Positions 14,056 to 23,949 of a DNA stretch of 34,127 bases are shown piece after piece. This DNA comes from a virus. Under the pieces are notes generated by a model that did no database searches, had not been told where the DNA came from, and saw nothing but the letters and a program-made list of their open reading frames with translations. Positions within the stretch are counted from its first letter, which is position 1, and each line of letters opens with the position of its first letter. Made by a program: the position numbers and the translations under genes. The stretch is from positions 1 to 34,127 of the IMG/VR virus record IMGVR_UViG_3300032235_000412. One strand, 5' to 3'.

Positions 14056-14301
14056 TTAAACCTTAGATGCCCATTTCGGCTTGCGCTTGGCGATAGAAGA
14101 ATTGTCCTCGATGCCGATTGCACGATTTTCATCGATCTTGGGCGCCTGTGGAGCGACCTGAGCCACGACCGGAGCATCATGCTTCTTGGCGCGACCGATT
14201 GAAATAAACTCGAAGGCATCCTTGTCGGCGATATCAACGATATGCCCAGCTTCGAGAAGCTCTCCGCGCCAATAGGTTGATCGTGTCATTTCAATTTTCA
14301 T
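14056..14301 (-). CDS. small capsid-proximal hypothetical protein
   Basis: An 81-residue protein starting MKIEMTRSTYWRGELLEAGH, with a central DAFEFISIGRAKKH and a basic end (KRKPKWASKV). Start 14301 was chosen because GAGG sits 7 bases upstream; an ATG at 14340 has none and would deepen the overlap. Small proteins with an opening like 'v...r.y..g.l...G...d' occur beside phage capsid genes and may be connector or decoration factors, but the role is not shown here. Confidence 0.68.
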   Translation of the reverse strand: MKIEMTRSTYWRGELLEAGHIVDIADKDAFEFISIGRAKKHDAPVVAQVAPQAPKIDENRAIGIEDNSSIAKRKPKWASKV

Positions 14302-14812
14302 CGAAGAACCTCTGAATTTCGTCGCATGTAAATCGAACATTTTTAGGGTTCGACAGTGAACTTTTTAGCGCCGTCCATATAGTCTTATCGCGCTGGTATG
14401 CATTCTGAACTGATTTTTCGTCTGGCTGATCATGCCAGTATCGCCGATCAGTTGCATAACCATCCATACCACAAACTCTGATTTCCTCATAGCCGAGGTA
14501 ATCAGCAAGCCAGACGGCTTTCGGTCCCGAGAGATTGAAGTTCGGGATGATGCCCGCCCATATTATGCCATCTCCTGAAAGCTCACGAAAGTGAGAAACC
14601 TTATAGGCTGGATGGTCTTTCACAATCTCGAAGATCGGCTTATCGGCAAAGAGGATGTAGGACAGAGGCAATAGCAGAGAATGCTGATTGACACCGATAA
14701 GATCGAAATGCTGCGGGAGATTGTAAATATCAGACAAAAGTCGAGGTGCGCCGCCTAGAATAGCGACACTCTCCCCTTTATGGCGATTTTTGAATTGTCC
14801 TAGCTCAAGCAT
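14291..14812 (-). CDS. Rossmann-like protein resembling DUF115/MptE or sialyltransferase-fold enzymes
   Basis: A protein of about 173 residues starting MLELGQFKNRHKGESVAILG. The motif VAILGGAPRLL, followed by DLIGVNQ, LSYILFADK and LGYEEIRVCGMDGY, resembles the N-terminal fold of DUF115/MptE-like proteins and GT-A/GT42-type glycosyltransferase-like proteins. A substrate cannot be named. It lies between the capsid gene and the head-tail connectors, where it interrupts an otherwise structural run, so it looks like a moron. It is separated from the capsid gene by a strong hairpin. The start was chosen over 14920, which lies inside the capsid gene. Confidence 0.68.
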   Translation of the reverse strand: MLELGQFKNRHKGESVAILGGAPRLLSDIYNLPQHFDLIGVNQHSLLLPLSYILFADKPIFEIVKDHPAYKVSHFRELSGDGIIWAGIIPNFNLSGPKAVWLADYLGYEEIRVCGMDGYATDRRYWHDQPDEKSVQNAYQRDKTIWTALKSSLSNPKNVRFTCDEIQRFFDEN

Positions 14813-14830
14813 CAATCTGCCTAAGAAGAA

Positions 14831-14852
14831 GTGGGGAGCCGAAGCTCCCCAC
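14831..14852 (-). terminator. strong hairpin with UUCG tetraloop after the capsid gene
   Basis: A perfect 9-bp stem GTGGGGAGC / GCTCCCCAC. On the minus strand its loop is UUCG closed by C-G, the exceptionally stable tetraloop. It begins 9 bases after the capsid stop codon. The following bases are pyrimidine-rich but not a T-run, so it may be an attenuator or an mRNA 3'-end stabiliser for the abundant capsid message rather than a full terminator. Confidence 0.7.
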
Positions 14853-14861
14853 TCTAAACCG

Positions 14862-16124
14862 TTAGGTCGTAACGATTTCCTTACAAGCCGCGAAGGACTG
14901 AGCATTACGCACAGCCACATCGACGTCTTGGAAGAAGGCGATGCGAGTGCCGCCGGAGGTCGAGAGCGTAGACGTATCGACCACGATATCGAGACCGGAG
15001 AACATGCCGATCATGAGATCGTTGAAGTTGCCGAAGATCATCGCCGACAGAGCCGAGCCAGAACCCTTCGTCAGATCGGACGGAACGAGGTTCGTTTCCG
15101 CGACCTGATAGCCAAGAAGGTTGTTCGTCTCGCCGAGGATGAAGTTGCCTTCGACACCGGAGGTCTGCTTCGCGGTCTGGCGGAGCTTCGACACGACCTT
15201 CGAGTTCGTGAGGTAAGCAAGCGAACCGTTCAGAGCATTGTCGATAGCGACTTCGCGCTGGAGGTTAACGACCGTTGCATAGGTCGGAGCGCCACCGTTC
15301 GTGCCGATCGTAACCGCGCCGATGCCCGAAGTGCCGAGAATGCCGGTAGGCTCGTTCGAACCACCGCCTTCGATAGCAACTTCATCGATCTTGCCGGCGA
15401 TCTGACGGGTGATGTCATCACGCAGAACGGCTTCGACCGACGGGTCCGACTGGATCATGAGCCGACGGGACAGATCGACATAACCGGCGACTGTCTTCGG
15501 CGACATCGTGACCTGAGCGAAGACGGGAGCGCCTTCGGTCGGAGCCGAACCTTCAGCGACGAATGCAACAGCAGTGCGGCCCGTGAGCTTCGGGATAGCC
15601 ACGTTGCCCTGAAGACCCGTCATCATGCGAGCGCCGAGGCTCGAAATGACGAGAGCTTCGCGCAGAGCATCGATGAACAGATCACCGCGATGATCCGTGC
15701 CGACCAGATAGCCACCCTTCGAGGTGCCTGTTCCGATGGAGGTCGTAACATCGCGCTGGCCCCAGCGAATGTCATTCGGGACGTAGAAGCCACGAGCGTC
15801 CTTGCCGGTGCGCTTGGCGATTTCGTCCGAAAGCTCGCGCTCGAAGCCAGCCTTGCGCCAGTCATTCGAAGCAGCCGCATTGATCGCGCGGAGGAGGCTG
15901 TAGTTGCGCTTTTCAGCAACTGTCAGACCGACCATTGCGTTCGATGCGAAAGCTTCGGTGCCAATGGCATCGAGGATGACGCCACGGAACTGCTCAATCG
16001 AAAGACCGTCAGCCACCGCCTTGTCAGCGAGTTCACGCTTATTGTGCTTTGCGCCAAGATCCATGATTGCCTTGGCATTCCGCGCGAATTCCGAGCGGAT
16101 GTCTTCATGATTAACTTCGGTCAT
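14862..16124 (-). CDS. major capsid protein from probable internal start within the fusion
   Basis: Within the fusion, the codons before Met511 read GTT AAG GAG AAT CCC ATG, which puts a strong AAGGAG ribosome site exactly 6 bases before an ATG at the protease/capsid domain border. This predicts a free 420-residue HK97-fold capsid protein, a normal length for the family including its delta domain (MTEVNHEDIRSEFARNAKAI...). Later motifs include GTSKGGYLVGTDHRGDLF and AAFF-like closing strands (GGTRIAFFQDVDVAV). Independent production would explain how capsid subunits outnumber protease. Confidence 0.78.
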   Translation of the reverse strand: MTEVNHEDIRSEFARNAKAIMDLGAKHNKRELADKAVADGLSIEQFRGVILDAIGTEAFASNAMVGLTVAEKRNYSLLRAINAAASNDWRKAGFERELSDEIAKRTGKDARGFYVPNDIRWGQRDVTTSIGTGTSKGGYLVGTDHRGDLFIDALREALVISSLGARMMTGLQGNVAIPKLTGRTAVAFVAEGSAPTEGAPVFAQVTMSPKTVAGYVDLSRRLMIQSDPSVEAVLRDDITRQIAGKIDEVAIEGGGSNEPTGILGTSGIGAVTIGTNGGAPTYATVVNLQREVAIDNALNGSLAYLTNSKVVSKLRQTAKQTSGVEGNFILGETNNLLGYQVAETNLVPSDLTKGSGSALSAMIFGNFNDLMIGMFSGLDIVVDTSTLSTSGGTRIAFFQDVDVAVRNAQSFAACKEIVTT

Positions 16125-17654
16125 GGGATTCTCCTTAACGACCGTGATTGAAGGAATATCAGCTGCTCGTCCAACGCCGACAGATGCATCTGCTGGAATT
16201 GATACGACCGATACTTCGAGAGGAGTCCAGTCGTTAACGCGAAAGATCGTCCCATCTGCCGCATTTTCTTGGACCATGTTGTTGACGCGATAACCGACCG
16301 AAATATTCGACCGAATCCCGTCTACGACATCATCGAAGACTTCTTTGGCAAGCCCACTTTTTCCAAAGCGAACAGTCGCTCGCATCACACGAGCCGAGCC
16401 ATCGATAGTGATATCTTCGACGATACCGATCTGCTTGCTTGGATCATGGTCAAGCAGCAAGGGTGCGCGACCAGAACCAAGGAATTCAAGATTGATGCTC
16501 GATGCGGAATGATCAAGCACTTCAGTTCCGAAATACCGTTCTACCGGCATTTCAGATGAGACTGCAATACGGACGCGACGCGATTTTTCATCGACCGGCT
16601 TCGCATCCATCAAGATCGAGCGCTTTGAAAGGTCAGCAGACCGACCCATTTCAAATGCATCATTGGGAGCCGTGTTGATATCGAGCGCTTCGGAATCGTC
16701 CTCTGGCATCTCTGCCTCGGGAGCCTCCGGCTTCGGATCTGTGTCGATTTCAACTTCGACCTTAACCATCATGCGCTCTTCATCAGTCATATCGGCCTCG
16801 CCGGTCGCCTCTTCAAATAAGATCGGCGAATATTCGTGATCTTCAAGCCATGATCTAGCTTGAGATGAGGAGAACAACTTAGCGTCAAAACGAATGGCTT
16901 GCAATTCTGATTTCTGGTCCTTGATTCCATAGATGGCATCGATTCCAGTTCCGAATGCATTATTTTCTCGGCGGAAGCTGTCATATTGAGCTGGATCTTT
17001 GAGACGCGCAGCGTGTTCGTTCGGATAAGGACGCTCGTCGTAGGACCGAAGATCATTGATTTTGCGAAGGGTCGAGAAGCGATGACCGACCAGTGTTTCG
17101 GTCGCTTCCCAGCCATCTTCGCCTTCTCGATAGATGCGAATCAGTGCCGCCGGATCTTCCGGTGTTGCTTCAATTGAGAATTTGCTGTCTGGGATGCCGA
17201 GGGTGCCTTCACTCATAATATGCTCGATCTGCCCTCTAGCCGTGCCGCCGGAGGAATCCCAAGACACGAAATCACCCAGCTTCAGAGAGCCGGGTTCCGC
17301 GCGGTCATTTTCATCGATGGATTCCATGCGAGACGCCTTTGCTTCTGCCCATGATCTGCCGGGATCGCCGCCCCAGAGAGCCCAAGCGATTCGCCCATTG
17401 GACGGATAGCCGTCTTCGCCGGGACGAAACCCTTCGGCCTGTTTATCGACCTCATGCCGAGCGAAGAAGCTGGTCATGCGGCGAATCGTTTCTGGCGAAA
17501 GATCGACCTTGTTTTTGATATCCCGAGCCCGAGCGACGCCGACCTCGGTCCCGCCGCGACCGAATTCCTGCCGCCAAGCAAGACCGCGCTCGGCCTCGGT
17601 GACCATCGCATCGTTTGGAACGAGATCGATCTCGATGCCTTTATACGTTGCCAT
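14862..17654 (-). CDS. fused N-terminal module + HK97-type prohead protease + major capsid protein
   Basis: A 930-residue fusion. Residues about 1-110 form a module with RMTSFFARHEVDK and GRIAWALWGGDPGRSWAEAK, seen beside phage capsid genes. Residues about 125-200 resemble a TUDOR-like DUF2945 domain (LGDFVSWDSSGGTARGQIEH). Residues 250-280 hold an AIRFDAKLFSSSQARSWLEDH segment. An acidic linker follows. Residues about 360-500 are an S78 protease with the probable triad H403 (LLLDHD), S452 (ISVGY) and E480 (WTPLEVSVVSIPAD). Residue 511 on is the HK97-fold capsid protein with a helical scaffold-like delta region. GAGGTGA precedes the ATG and the start overlaps the portal stop. Confidence 0.9.
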   Translation of the reverse strand: MATYKGIEIDLVPNDAMVTEAERGLAWRQEFGRGGTEVGVARARDIKNKVDLSPETIRRMTSFFARHEVDKQAEGFRPGEDGYPSNGRIAWALWGGDPGRSWAEAKASRMESIDENDRAEPGSLKLGDFVSWDSSGGTARGQIEHIMSEGTLGIPDSKFSIEATPEDPAALIRIYREGEDGWEATETLVGHRFSTLRKINDLRSYDERPYPNEHAARLKDPAQYDSFRRENNAFGTGIDAIYGIKDQKSELQAIRFDAKLFSSSQARSWLEDHEYSPILFEEATGEADMTDEERMMVKVEVEIDTDPKPEAPEAEMPEDDSEALDINTAPNDAFEMGRSADLSKRSILMDAKPVDEKSRRVRIAVSSEMPVERYFGTEVLDHSASSINLEFLGSGRAPLLLDHDPSKQIGIVEDITIDGSARVMRATVRFGKSGLAKEVFDDVVDGIRSNISVGYRVNNMVQENAADGTIFRVNDWTPLEVSVVSIPADASVGVGRAADIPSITVVKENPMTEVNHEDIRSEFARNAKAIMDLGAKHNKRELADKAVADGLSIEQFRGVILDAIGTEAFASNAMVGLTVAEKRNYSLLRAINAAASNDWRKAGFERELSDEIAKRTGKDARGFYVPNDIRWGQRDVTTSIGTGTSKGGYLVGTDHRGDLFIDALREALVISSLGARMMTGLQGNVAIPKLTGRTAVAFVAEGSAPTEGAPVFAQVTMSPKTVAGYVDLSRRLMIQSDPSVEAVLRDDITRQIAGKIDEVAIEGGGSNEPTGILGTSGIGAVTIGTNGGAPTYATVVNLQREVAIDNALNGSLAYLTNSKVVSKLRQTAKQTSGVEGNFILGETNNLLGYQVAETNLVPSDLTKGSGSALSAMIFGNFNDLMIGMFSGLDIVVDTSTLSTSGGTRIAFFQDVDVAVRNAQSFAACKEIVTT
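16131..16136 (-). promoter_or_regulatory. internal Shine-Dalgarno for free capsid protein
   Basis: AAGGAG on the minus strand, 6 bases before the ATG at 16124, inside the protease-capsid reading frame at the exact domain junction. The match and spacing are better than for most gene starts in this genome, including several true ones, so chance is an unlikely explanation. Confidence 0.75.
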
Positions 17655-19128
17655 TTGTCACCTCTTGCCCGTCTACAATCGGAGGTGCCGGAGCTTTCTG
17701 ACCGAAAGGCTGGAATGCGGTTGTGATTCCATAAGTTTCGGCAAGCTCGCGCTCTGATTCGATCTGCTCGAATACCTCTTCGACATCGCGACCATAATGC
17801 GCTGCAATATCCTGCATCGTGACGATACCGTTTTGCAGACCCACAACATGCGCTTGGATTTCTTTAAGCGGATCGACCCAGTTCCAGCCGCGAGCGCGGA
17901 AGATCAGATTGTCGGCAAATTTATCATATTTGCTATCTGGAATCGGAATTGATGCTTTGGTCATTGTCATCAGCAGCCATTCTTTGAAGATCGGCTCGAT
18001 AAAATGCTCGATCATAAATTGCTGCATCATGCGGTAATGATCGCGGTCTTCCATCGTTCCTTGGCGGATCGATGAATAGGAAACGCCTTCCAGATTGTTG
18101 GCGAGAGAGACATAATTCACGCCAAGACCGGAAGCGATGCCGCGCAGAACTGCTTTTTCGAATTCAGCAAAAGCCGAGACCGGATGCTGCGGATCGAAGC
18201 TTTGAAAAGTCATGCCAGCCGGCAGCTGCTCGAACATACCGGGCTGCGCTTCCATAATCGGATTGTGTTTATCTTCTAGATCCGATCCGACATAACCATC
18301 ACCGCCGGGAGACGTGAAGAAGCCCATTTTTGAGGCTGCAACACGAGCGGCAACGAGTTCAGCCTCTTCGTATCCGTCAAGCATCTTCAACCGCGTGAGA
18401 GCGGTTGTCATTGTCGGCATTCCGCGTGTCTGGTGAGGACGTTCACGGAGATAGATGTGCAGCATTTCTTCGGCAGGAATGCGCTTGCGAAGAATGTTTG
18501 TCGGTCGAGAATAAATATCTGCGCCGGGATGATTTTCGAGCAGATGATAAGCGACCGCTTTTCCGTATTTGTCGATCTCGACACCCATACGGATTTCGTT
18601 GCCATTCTCGGTTGCGCGAAGATTGTATTGATCATCGAGATAGTCTGCCTCGATGAAATGGATTGCAAAACCGTATGGCAGATTGCGATTTTTTACCTTC
18701 TGAACAAGGACTTCGCCATCGCGGCACAGCGTTTCGATAAAAAGACGCTGGCAATCAAGCCACGAAAGCTTGCCATCCATAGTGCAGATGCCGGTGGAGC
18801 CCCAGCGATACCATGCGTTTTCAATGATTGTATTGCCGGGTGCATCGAGTGTACGATCAGAATTCCGACCACGAACTTGAACCCTCACGCCAGTTGATCC
18901 GACCACGTTTGTGGTCATCAATTGCAAATAGCGCCGCGCATAATCATTGTTGCGAGCCACATCTCGGCATCGGTCTCTTACGATTCGCAGAGCCGGATAG
19001 ATTTCGCTGTCAGCGCTTTTTTGAGTAACAAGAAAGTCAGCCAGAAGGCGACCCTTCTGCGCGGCAGCATATTGGCGAAGCGAGATCGGCTTTTTTTTCC
19101 GACCGAAAAATCTATCGATCAGCCCCAT
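17641..19128 (-). CDS. portal protein (lambda family)
   Basis: A 495-residue portal, forming the dodecameric ring through which DNA enters the head. It begins MGLIDRFFGRKKKP and contains IVRDRCRDVARNNDYARRYL and the VVGSTGVRVQVRGRN segment, characteristic of lambda-family portals. Later RERPHQTRGMPTMTTAL and a core helix region (GVSYSSIRQGTMEDRDHYRM) also match. The start shares one base with the preceding stop (TGATG) and the end overlaps the protease-capsid fusion by 14 bases. Length is normal for the family. Confidence 0.93.
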   Translation of the reverse strand: MGLIDRFFGRKKKPISLRQYAAAQKGRLLADFLVTQKSADSEIYPALRIVRDRCRDVARNNDYARRYLQLMTTNVVGSTGVRVQVRGRNSDRTLDAPGNTIIENAWYRWGSTGICTMDGKLSWLDCQRLFIETLCRDGEVLVQKVKNRNLPYGFAIHFIEADYLDDQYNLRATENGNEIRMGVEIDKYGKAVAYHLLENHPGADIYSRPTNILRKRIPAEEMLHIYLRERPHQTRGMPTMTTALTRLKMLDGYEEAELVAARVAASKMGFFTSPGGDGYVGSDLEDKHNPIMEAQPGMFEQLPAGMTFQSFDPQHPVSAFAEFEKAVLRGIASGLGVNYVSLANNLEGVSYSSIRQGTMEDRDHYRMMQQFMIEHFIEPIFKEWLLMTMTKASIPIPDSKYDKFADNLIFRARGWNWVDPLKEIQAHVVGLQNGIVTMQDIAAHYGRDVEEVFEQIESERELAETYGITTAFQPFGQKAPAPPIVDGQEVTNGNV

Positions 19129-21564: not shown

Positions 21565-22060
21565 TCGCGGATGCGATGACGGGATTTCGAGTGCGGATTT
21601 CAATGCCCGAGAGTTCCGCGAGCGCTTCATTGATTTCGTCTTTCAAGATCGACTTGGCTTCGTTGAGATTGTCGGCTGCATAGACTGCCGGCGCTGCCTT
21701 CGATGGAATGGCAAGCATCTTCGAGCGCATGTTCGATGCCATCGCCTCCCATGCGGCTGCAATATCTTCTGCCGGAATAAGGCGATTTTCCATCTGCGCC
21801 TTTTCCATTTCGGCAAGATCCGCTCGCGCCGCAGTCAATCGAGTGCGGTGGCTTGTGAGATCGCCGGTGACCGAAGATGCATCACCTTTAAGCGCTCGCT
21901 CGCGAAGGAATTTGATATAGCCACGAACACAAGGCACAAGCTCATATCGACCGCGTGAATGACGCGGAATGATACCGTCATTCACAAGCCGAGCGATGCT
22001 CTGCGGAGTTAGATCGAGCAGTTTGCAGATTGTTTCGAGCGGGAATGTTTGCGCTGCCAT
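21491..22060 (-). CDS. terminase small subunit (Nu1-like)
   Basis: A 189-residue protein that recognises the packaging site. The N-terminus is a winged-helix or excisionase-like DNA-binding domain (ICKLLDLTPQSIARLVNDGI then RHSRGRYELVPCVRGYIKFL), as in lambda Nu1. A charged helical region (ARADLAEMEKAQMENRL) serves in oligomerisation and contact with the large subunit. It starts on the stop of the Mom-like gene (TAATG) and overlaps the large-subunit start. The acidic low-complexity tail (DDGDIDSTAEPVGEPVG) is unusual and lies in the overlap. Confidence 0.85.
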   Translation of the reverse strand: MAAQTFPLETICKLLDLTPQSIARLVNDGIIPRHSRGRYELVPCVRGYIKFLRERALKGDASSVTGDLTSHRTRLTAARADLAEMEKAQMENRLIPAEDIAAAWEAMASNMRSKMLAIPSKAAPAVYAADNLNEAKSILKDEINEALAELSGIEIRTRNPVIASANVGTSAADDGDIDSTAEPVGEPVG

Positions 22061-22740
22061 TAGGTTTTATCCTTTGGAGCGTGTGGGTCAGTGTTGCACT
22101 GCCGCTGTTCCGAGGGGTTCTCGGTCATTGCCTGCTTCACACGCTTAGGATATGGCTTCGCAAGCGGAATAATACGATCACGCATCTCTGAGTCAAGTGG
22201 CATAAGATAGCGATATTTTCCCGGCACATCAACAACATATGCATTTTGATCTAGTTTTTGAGCGCCTGATAGATTTTGAATAAGCCCAAGAGATCCAAGT
22301 GATCTTGGATGCGTTAGTTTGTTTTTAATCATATAAAATTTTGCACTTCCGCTTTGCCCTGCATAAATCCAGTTACCAGCCTGATAGATTCCGCCATGAT
22401 GGTTTTGCGATTGATCGGCAAATGAAACGATAAGTTTTATTTTTGGATTTGATTTTTTCAAAAACTTTATGGCTATAGCTGCAATTTTAGAAACAGGCGT
22501 TTGATGTTTGGTAAGTGCAATTCGCACTAGTTCGACGCATTCGTCTTGCCCAAGATTATACGGATTTCCAAGATTAGGCGTTGCGCCGCGCGCAAACAAA
22601 ACAACTCCAATAAATTTATTATTTTCCCATGCACCAACTTTCACCAGTTTACCTACCGGGATGCATTTGCTGTAATGCCAGTTCTCACACGCAAACTTAG
22701 CTGCTTCGTGCGTAGCCCAGTCAATTTTTAGATCAACCAT
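22060..22740 (-). CDS. mom: Mom-like DNA adenine modification protein
   Basis: A 226-residue protein resembling phage Mu Mom, the GNAT-like enzyme that converts adenine in phage DNA to a carbamoylmethyl form and shields it from restriction. Shared-looking features are ENWHYSK (residues 20-25 region), FARGATPNLG, DECVELVRIALTKH and SFADQSQNHHGGIYQAGNW (about 106-124), the last resembling the acyl-CoA-loop region of GNAT folds. Start 22740 follows AGGA and overlaps the ParB-like stop by 8 bases. The C-terminal 25 residues are basic and proline-rich, an extension of unknown use. Assignment is by motif memory. Confidence 0.8.
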   Translation of the reverse strand: MVDLKIDWATHEAAKFACENWHYSKCIPVGKLVKVGAWENNKFIGVVLFARGATPNLGNPYNLGQDECVELVRIALTKHQTPVSKIAAIAIKFLKKSNPKIKLIVSFADQSQNHHGGIYQAGNWIYAGQSGSAKFYMIKNKLTHPRSLGSLGLIQNLSGAQKLDQNAYVVDVPGKYRYLMPLDSEMRDRIIPLAKPYPKRVKQAMTENPSEQRQCNTDPHAPKDKT

Positions 22741-23266
22741 TTTCGTGTTTCCTAGAATCAAACTCTTTTTGACAATGAGGGCACTTCACCATCTTTGGAT
22801 CGAGTTCATCTAGCTTGCCCTGATCGTCTTCTGTGCCGGGAGCAAAGTCAGCTTCGCTTAAATAAATTTTAAGCTCGGCATCATCGAAGCCAGTCAGGCT
22901 GAGATCAAAGTCTTCTTCCTTCAGCCCGCGCAATTCGTTGATCAGCATATCCTGATCCCAGCCCGAATTTAGCGCCAGCTTGTTATCGGCGATCACATAG
23001 GCTCTCTTCTGCGCATCGGTCAGATAGCCAAGCCGGATGCAAGGCACCTCAGATAGCCCGAGCTTCTGAGCCGCCATCACGCGCCCGTGGCCGGCGATGA
23101 TCCCGTTGTCGGCATCGATCAGGACCGGGTTCGTGAAGCCAAACTCCTTGATCGACCCGGCGATCTGGGCGGTTTGCGCCTCAGAATGAGTGCGAGAATT
23201 GCGAGCATATGGGATCAAATCAGCGGTTTTGATCTGCTCAATCTTCATAACTTTTGGCTGGTTCAT
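22733..23266 (-). CDS. ParB-like nuclease-domain protein with C-terminal CxxC
   Basis: A 177-residue protein. Residues about 10-130 are a ParB/Srx-type domain with the signature NGIIAGHGRVMAAQKLGL (GHGR at about 59-62) and IADNKLALNSGWD. In phages this domain is usually fused to, or next to, a DNA methylase. Here it stands alone, with a short tail KCPHCQKEF (C162, C165) that may bind zinc. It overlaps the Mom-like gene by 8 bases, so the two are almost certainly co-translated. ParB-like domains bind DNA and some bind CTP; the activity here is unknown. Confidence 0.82.
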   Translation of the reverse strand: MNQPKVMKIEQIKTADLIPYARNSRTHSEAQTAQIAGSIKEFGFTNPVLIDADNGIIAGHGRVMAAQKLGLSEVPCIRLGYLTDAQKRAYVIADNKLALNSGWDQDMLINELRGLKEEDFDLSLTGFDDAELKIYLSEADFAPGTEDDQGKLDELDPKMVKCPHCQKEFDSRKHENG

Positions 23267-23391
23267 CTTAATTTAACACCCCTATTTATTTTCTGTCGCT
23301 AGGAAAGACTCGCGGTCGCGCGTTACCCGCGAGTGGATTGCCGTGGGAGGACCCGAAACCCTAGACATATCAATAACTTGGCAAAAATTAA
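23267..23391 (-). promoter_or_regulatory. 125-bp leader of the ParB-Mom pair with hairpins
   Basis: This is one of only two sizeable gaps in the leftward arm. It holds an inverted repeat CTCGCGG / CCGCGAG at 23309-23315 and 23327-23333, and an AT-rich hairpin GGCAAAAA / TTTTTGCC at 23380-23387 and 23396-23403 that spans the stop codon of the upstream methyltransferase gene. CGAAACCCTAG (23354-23364) resembles CGAAAACCCTAG in the repeat block at 24730. It probably controls the two genes separately, but no good promoter is obvious. Confidence 0.4.
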
Positions 23392-23949
23392 TCATTTTTT
23401 GCCACCTACGAAGCGATAGGCATGACCTATAGAAAATTCTTCTAGCATGTTGAACCGCTTGCATAAGAGGTCTCTCCAATAGCCGTCTAACTCGACAGTC
23501 AGGTGCAGGGTCTCTCCGATCAATGCGCCACAACTGTCCCGTCCGGTTGCGATCTGAAAGAAACATTTGTTGAGCGTTGCCTTCTCGATGCAGTCGAGGG
23601 TGCGCTCGACATAGTCGGGGGGGATATGCTCCATGACATCCGCGCAGAATGTGTAGTCCGCCCGCAGTTCCTCCGATAGATCCCAGAGGCATTGGTTAAC
23701 AAACGGGAGATAGTTTATCTCGACGGCTGTGGTCACGAAGTCTACCAGCGTGACGCTGAGACCCCTATCGGCGAAATAGTTACCAGCTCGACCCGTGCCG
23801 CATCCCATATCGATCAGGCTCTCGCCCTCTCGACACTGCATTGCAGCATAGGCGACGGGTGCGGCATCCAAGCCTGGAGACCAGCCACGGTACTCCTTGA
23901 AGCTCCACATACGCTCATACTTCCTGCGCTCTTTGTCCTCGGTTGTCAT
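23392..23949 (-). CDS. class I SAM-dependent methyltransferase
   Basis: A 185-residue Rossmann-fold methyltransferase. Motif I is SLIDMGCGTGRAG (about residues 44-56), the acidic residue of motif II follows in VTLVDF, and CADVMEHIPPDY matches the post-motif region. No NPPY/DPPY is present, so it is not a typical adenine or N4-cytosine DNA methylase. The substrate could be a small molecule, a protein or a modified base. It overlaps the upstream gene by ATGA. Its place beside the ParB-Mom pair makes a part in DNA modification plausible but unproven. Confidence 0.8.
   Translation of the reverse strand: MTTEDKERRKYERMWSFKEYRGWSPGLDAAPVAYAAMQCREGESLIDMGCGTGRAGNYFADRGLSVTLVDFVTTAVEINYLPFVNQCLWDLSEELRADYTFCADVMEHIPPDYVERTLDCIEKATLNKCFFQIATGRDSCGALIGETLHLTVELDGYWRDLLCKRFNMLEEFSIGHAYRFVGGKK

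Follow-up and report, generated by a model that had tools for sequence, protein, structure and literature searches.

In the DNA analyzed here, a single reading frame on the minus strand joins an S78 protease to an HK97-type capsid protein, and an in-frame ATG with a strong Shine-Dalgarno (SD) sequence lies at the border between the two. The whole stretch analyzed (the window) has 34,127 bases and corresponds to one virus record in IMG/VR. The second start is conserved at the nucleotide level among relatives carrying the same fusion and recurs in an unrelated fusion class. Judged from the sequence, the gene very probably has two starts in one frame, with a fusion made from Met1, the bulk of the capsid precursor made from Met511, and the fusion carrying the protease inside the shell.

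17641-19128, minus strand: lambda-type portal gene (domain profiles), sharing 14 bases with the start of the fusion gene
14862-17654, minus strand: protease-capsid fusion gene, 930 aa (~100.7 kDa), ATG to TAA, matching phrog_617
17256-17627, minus strand: N-terminal module, residues 10-133, phrog_2859-like, function unknown
17136-17276, minus strand: TUDOR-like segment, residues 127-173, Pfam match below cut-off
16185-16469, minus strand: Peptidase_S78 domain, residues 396-490, with His403, Ser452 and Glu480 (Pfam and alignment)
16110-16199, minus strand: linker, residues 486-515, predicted to be disordered (pLDDT <50 in an overall poor model), containing the internal start
16131-16136, minus strand: internal Shine-Dalgarno AAGGAG, pairing energy -9.2, conserved in relatives
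16122-16124, minus strand: internal ATG, Met511, the putative start of a free capsid precursor (420 aa, 44.3 kDa), based on the SD and the conserved linker ATG
15717-16124, minus strand: putative delta (scaffold) domain, residues 511-646 (model; boundary by alignment to 8gta)
14865-15716, minus strand: mature HK97-fold capsid domain, residues 647-930 (Pfam, 8gta match)

A sequence-only reading of the window had described the 930-codon frame as a fusion of S78 protease and HK97-type capsid, and the profile matches bear this out. Peptidase_S78 (PF04586) matches residues 396-490 with 26.7 bits against a cut-off of 21, and Phage_capsid (PF05065) matches residues 647-923 (E 9.8e-36). Both HK97-type capsid models score above their cut-offs (PF05065, 124 vs 24.2; TIGR01554, 126.3 vs 27.5). 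Residues 348-927 align to positions 15-624 of the 626 in the phrog_617 profile (E 7e-137), and the gene belongs to that family. The S78 domain falls below the TIGR01543 equivalog cut-off (27.6 vs 59), and the model of protease/major capsid protein fusions, NF045541, is matched by residues 354-573 only, with 140 bits against a cut-off of 525. The residues proposed as catalytic, H403, S452 and E480, are invariant in all 48 fused open reading frames (ORFs) aligned.

The N-terminal part is less uniform. A module similar to phrog_2859 is present as described earlier, but to call it capsid-linked is only partly correct, since residues 10-133 also match phage proteins whose annotations read portal, DNA-binding, "coil containing" or protease. 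Residues 1-119 of the fusion recur in hits H102, H106, H109 and H112, which carry such annotations (the protease being a capsid maturation protease). The TUDOR-like domain is visible as a similarity of residues 127-173 to Hva1_TUDOR (PF11160) but, at 23.2 bits, lies under the cut-off of 24.1. Residues 120-340, which lie between the N-terminal module and the protease and include this segment, are wholly or partly absent in L004, L041 and L044, and L016 and L020 match DUF5824 in their N-terminal parts. AlphaFold modeling of the whole fusion, an earlier suggestion, gave a poor overall model (17 sequences; mean pLDDT 46.7, pTM 0.25), but one with local disorder at the linker; only its local confidence values were used, which set the linker (<50) apart from the protease (pLDDT mostly 67-85) on one side and the first delta helix (~79) on the other. 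Met511 is positioned in this poor model within the predicted disordered linker, just ahead of the first helix (residue 516) of the presumed delta domain.

Elsewhere in the window, the ORF that follows the capsid gene immediately downstream (14291-14833, minus strand; 180 residues) matched nothing in Pfam, NCBIfam or PHROGs. In the interval 22060-23949 on the minus strand, upstream of the terminase genes, a Mom-family DNA modification gene (PF25680, E 1.4e-44) is clustered with a ParB_N-like and a methyltransferase-like gene.

At Met511 (16124) the sequence AAGGAG-AATCCC-ATG was confirmed, with a spacing of six bases. Its pairing energy with the anti-SD tail of 16S rRNA, -9.2 kcal/mol, is the best in the gene, which has 24 in-frame ATGs; the second- and third-best internal ATGs reach -6.5 and -5.9 kcal/mol. 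It is also the strongest SD among 23 starts compared across the window, some of which are only guesses of the ORF caller. The mRNA structure around Met511 is not unusually weak, with 26% of codon positions being weaker. As the fusion's own first start also has an SD (-7.1) and overlaps the portal gene, the ratio of the two products does not follow from sequence alone.

To follow the site in relatives, 48 fused ORFs were assembled, consisting of the window gene, 24 IMG/VR loci and 23 named phages (taken from 121 matching phage records), and removal of near-copies left 26 non-redundant ORFs. Loci were excluded when they did not span the border (L001, L015, L019, L024, L029, L031, L032), had a separate capsid ORF (L030, L033, L035, L038) or had a match stopping short of the protease (L034, L036, L037, L039, L040). 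A pattern scan of genome contigs yielded one partial locus. One of the six scan patterns used to find relatives is the border peptide itself and could favor loci that keep the border; the named phages were retrieved without it. A pairing energy at or below -5 was taken as a strong SD.

Loss of the SD-ATG in fused relatives, which had been named as evidence that would count against an internal start, was not seen. An in-frame linker ATG is present in 48/48 fused ORFs and in all 26 of the non-redundant set. The best linker ATG has a strong SD in 40/48, compared with 152 of the 983 other in-frame ATGs, and the mean energies are -7.0 and -2.1, respectively; where an ORF has several linker ATGs (up to three), these values use the one that pairs best, an advantage for which the equal-length windows used with the non-redundant set correct. 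There, a linker ATG with a strong SD occurs in 20/26 ORFs, while ∼5.3 (20%) are expected from linker-length windows placed at random positions outside the linker of each ORF, and the observed number was not reached in any of 5000 such draws. Similarly, a four-base SD core lies 5-11 bases upstream of a linker ATG in 23 of the 26, vs 12% expected. The proposal of two starts in one gene is supported by this conservation.

The site could instead be inert, with only the 930-residue fusion being made and the SD-ATG being either a relic of once-separate genes or a by-product of a linker rich in Lys, Glu and Gly. Split relatives do exist, and the encoded residues by themselves favor SD-like DNA: upon synonymous shuffling of the 26 genes the null mean is -4.2. 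The observed mean is, however, -6.4 (Wilcoxon p 2e-6; Fisher combined p 0.013). The shuffle is individually significant in 1/26 genes only, which indicates that part of the SD signal resides in the encoded residues. Three further observations weigh against an inert site. First, a strong SD-ATG is found in frame in 20/26 linkers and in the +1 frame in 0/26, though a +1 ATG is present in 20, which argues against the purine-rich linker as the cause; no +2 ATGs occur in the 26 linkers, so the +2 frame is uninformative. Second, the site is kept among relatives that are mostly 22%-50% identical, while the sequence and length of the linker vary. The SD region encodes 26 different hexapeptides in 26 linkers, and the SD core uses all three codon phases (9, 8 and 7 of 24). 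Third, an SD preceding a linker Met is also found in fusions with a ClpP-like protease (see below). Taken with the packing of the shell, these make an inert site very unlikely.

Nor does the SD appear to act only on elongation. An internal SD at a domain border could slow ribosomes and so give the protease time to fold ahead of capsid synthesis, with no initiation, and the location of the SD suits this idea. Pausing would not need an ATG, yet every one of the 26 non-redundant members has one in the linker, and where an SD core was found (24/26) it lies 6-11 bases from the ATG. A pause of this kind is therefore considered extremely improbable.

The linker SD also resembles the other translation starts of the phages that carry it. 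In 22 named phages it is as strong as other annotated nearby starts (-5.3 vs -4.9) and tracks the strength of the other starts of its own phage (Spearman 0.55, p 0.009). The cyanophages S-CBS1, S-CBS3 and S-LBS1 have the linker ATG and no SD at it; their other starts are also weak on average in S-LBS1 and S-CBS3, but not in S-CBS1. Among the distant loci outside the count, the linker ATGs of L034, L036, L037, L039 and L040 lack a strong SD (-0.9 to 0.5); the protease is in frame in L034 and L036, and none was detected in L039. In Roseobacter phage CRP-823 (L043, 1180-4108), a frame change, either real or a sequencing error, breaks the N-terminal part of the fused gene, which is intact in CRP-821; the protease-capsid part and the linker start remain in one ORF.

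A second set was seeded by the fused gene of Stenotrophomonas phage S1 and gave 75 loci from 80 of 161 confirmed stretches, with one of the six search patterns spanning the border of the S1 gene. After partial loci (L084, L094-L096) and near-copies were dropped, 14 S78 and 27 ClpP-like ORFs remained. The capsid in these fusions belongs to a different family, Phage_capsid_4 in the members scanned. All 27 ClpP-like fusions match NF045540, and all 27 have a linker Met; no other column that lies between A196 and D405 (reference numbering) is invariant. This Met has an SD at or below -5 in 26/27, vs 9% expected, although the column was chosen for its best SD, which makes the p value optimistic. A separate class thus displays a pattern like that of the window gene. 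The S78 fusions to Phage_capsid_4 have a linker ATG in 13/14, the exception (L105) having GTG with AAGGAG, and reach the SD threshold in only 5/14. In the Arthrobacter fusions of Circum, Gordon and Maggie, an SD-ATG lies past the protease domain, at Met165, Met241 and Met160, respectively. The 1227-codon frame of L126 was considered as a larger fusion and rejected, its extra N-terminal part having no family match and its likely start being Met547.

Free capsid protein could also arise by autoproteolysis within the linker, the internal start contributing little. Self-cleaving protease-scaffold proteins are known, such as gpO of phage P2, the protease triad is intact in 48/48 ORFs, and the linker is predicted to be disordered. 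Cleavage of the protein leaves unexplained why an ATG and SD are conserved in all codon phases and why Met is the sole invariant linker column in the ClpP-like fusions, and we regard this route as highly unlikely to be the main source.

If both starts are used, initiation at Met1 would give the 930-residue protease-delta-capsid fusion, and initiation at Met511 from the strong linker SD would give a delta-capsid precursor of 420 residues, comparable to those that HK97-type phages make from a separate capsid gene. The shell would consist mainly of this free precursor, with a smaller number of fusion subunits co-assembling through the capsid domain and bringing the S78 protease into the prohead, where it would trim the delta domains and itself be removed. 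Initiation at Met511, the product ratio and the role in assembly are what we infer from the sequence.

The size of the predicted internal product is in keeping with this scheme. From linker start to stop, the 26 relatives encode 403-491 residues (420 in the window), compared with 182-633 for the parts upstream. The stand-alone capsid ORFs of the split relatives L030, L033, L035 and L038 are 412-481 aa long, counted from the first ATG, and this match in length indicates that the internal start is placed where a stand-alone capsid gene starts. The ORF upstream of the split capsid gene is S78 in L035 and L038 and ClpP-like in L033, with no assignment in L030. In phage FP_Epona the genes are also split, with AGGAGG ahead of the capsid start.

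The nearest solved chain to the window capsid part is 8gta (E 4.1e-38), the capsid of Dinoroseobacter phage R4C, whose shell has T=7 and 415 copies according to the accessible part of its report (PMC10276861). The solved chain comprises residues 362-629 of the 629-residue fused gene of R4C (268 residues). Most of R4C's annotated fused protein is outside the ordered shell, and the structure does not tell which precursor is made; in the main text, as far as accessible, neither "protease" nor words beginning with "cleav" occur (PMC10276861). With T=7 and the radii assumed, 415 copies of residues 1-646 would occupy 49%-107% of a cavity with an inner radius of 26-20 nm, and the delta domains alone 10%-22% of the same cavity. 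Production of the fusion alone would therefore appear sterically (nearly) impossible for the 510-residue N-terminal part at 415 copies in a T=7 shell, given the assumed radii. Under the same assumptions, the estimate agrees with a minority of fusion and bulk capsid from Met511.

Fusion of protease and capsid is itself already catalogued, and only the conserved second start adds to it. PHROG 617 and 4523 include such fusions, and two NCBIfam models of the exception type cover fusions of prohead protease and major capsid protein, one S78-like (NF045541), the other ClpP-like (NF045540). A 2017 report describes fused genes in Rhodococcus phage RRH1 and in Arthrobacter phages of clusters AM, AU and AN (PMC5513430). 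The window gene is likewise one frame, with the protease followed by an HK97-fold capsid, and differs in having ∼340 extra residues ahead of the protease and in scoring under the NF045541 cut-off. Neither the family names nor the accessible part of the Arthrobacter paper (PMC5513430) mentions an internal start, and no mention of one in protease-capsid fusions was found in the open-access literature, subscription papers being mostly outside the scope of the search.

Nested products of protease genes have precedents. In lambda C/Nu3, an in-frame internal start within the protease gene yields an abundant assembly protein without the protease. Analogous to this, the window gene and its relatives have a conserved in-frame internal SD-ATG nested in a protease gene, with a predicted product that lacks the protease. 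The lambda product, however, is a scaffold, with the capsid gene separate, whereas the nested product here would include the whole capsid domain and be the capsid precursor itself. In the overlapping protease and scaffold genes of herpesviruses, few protease-bearing and many protease-free subunits share a common C-terminal part and co-assemble; in that case, what the subunits share is scaffold, and a separate transcript encodes the short form. HK97 encodes protease and capsid in two separate genes. HK97 and the split loci L033, L035, L038 and L070 have similar kinds of protease and capsid, in a similar order and with similar precursor length, but in two genes rather than one frame.

How phages load a set number of proteases into the prohead is a standing question. 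On balance, we lean toward internal initiation being a general condition of protease-capsid fusion in phages, the in-frame border site being kept or regained whether the protease joined to the HK97-fold capsid is S78 or the unrelated ClpP-like type; the two start signals would then set the share of protease-bearing subunits, and the enzyme would enter as a chimeric subunit of the lattice, not as separate cargo. If one gene with two starts sets the ratio, protease dosage would depend on the two ribosome sites. Database capsids of such fusions, annotated at ∼600-980 residues, would then have the wrong precursor boundary, which would affect proteomics, capsid phylogenies and structural work, as in R4C, where 268 of 629 residues form the solved chain.
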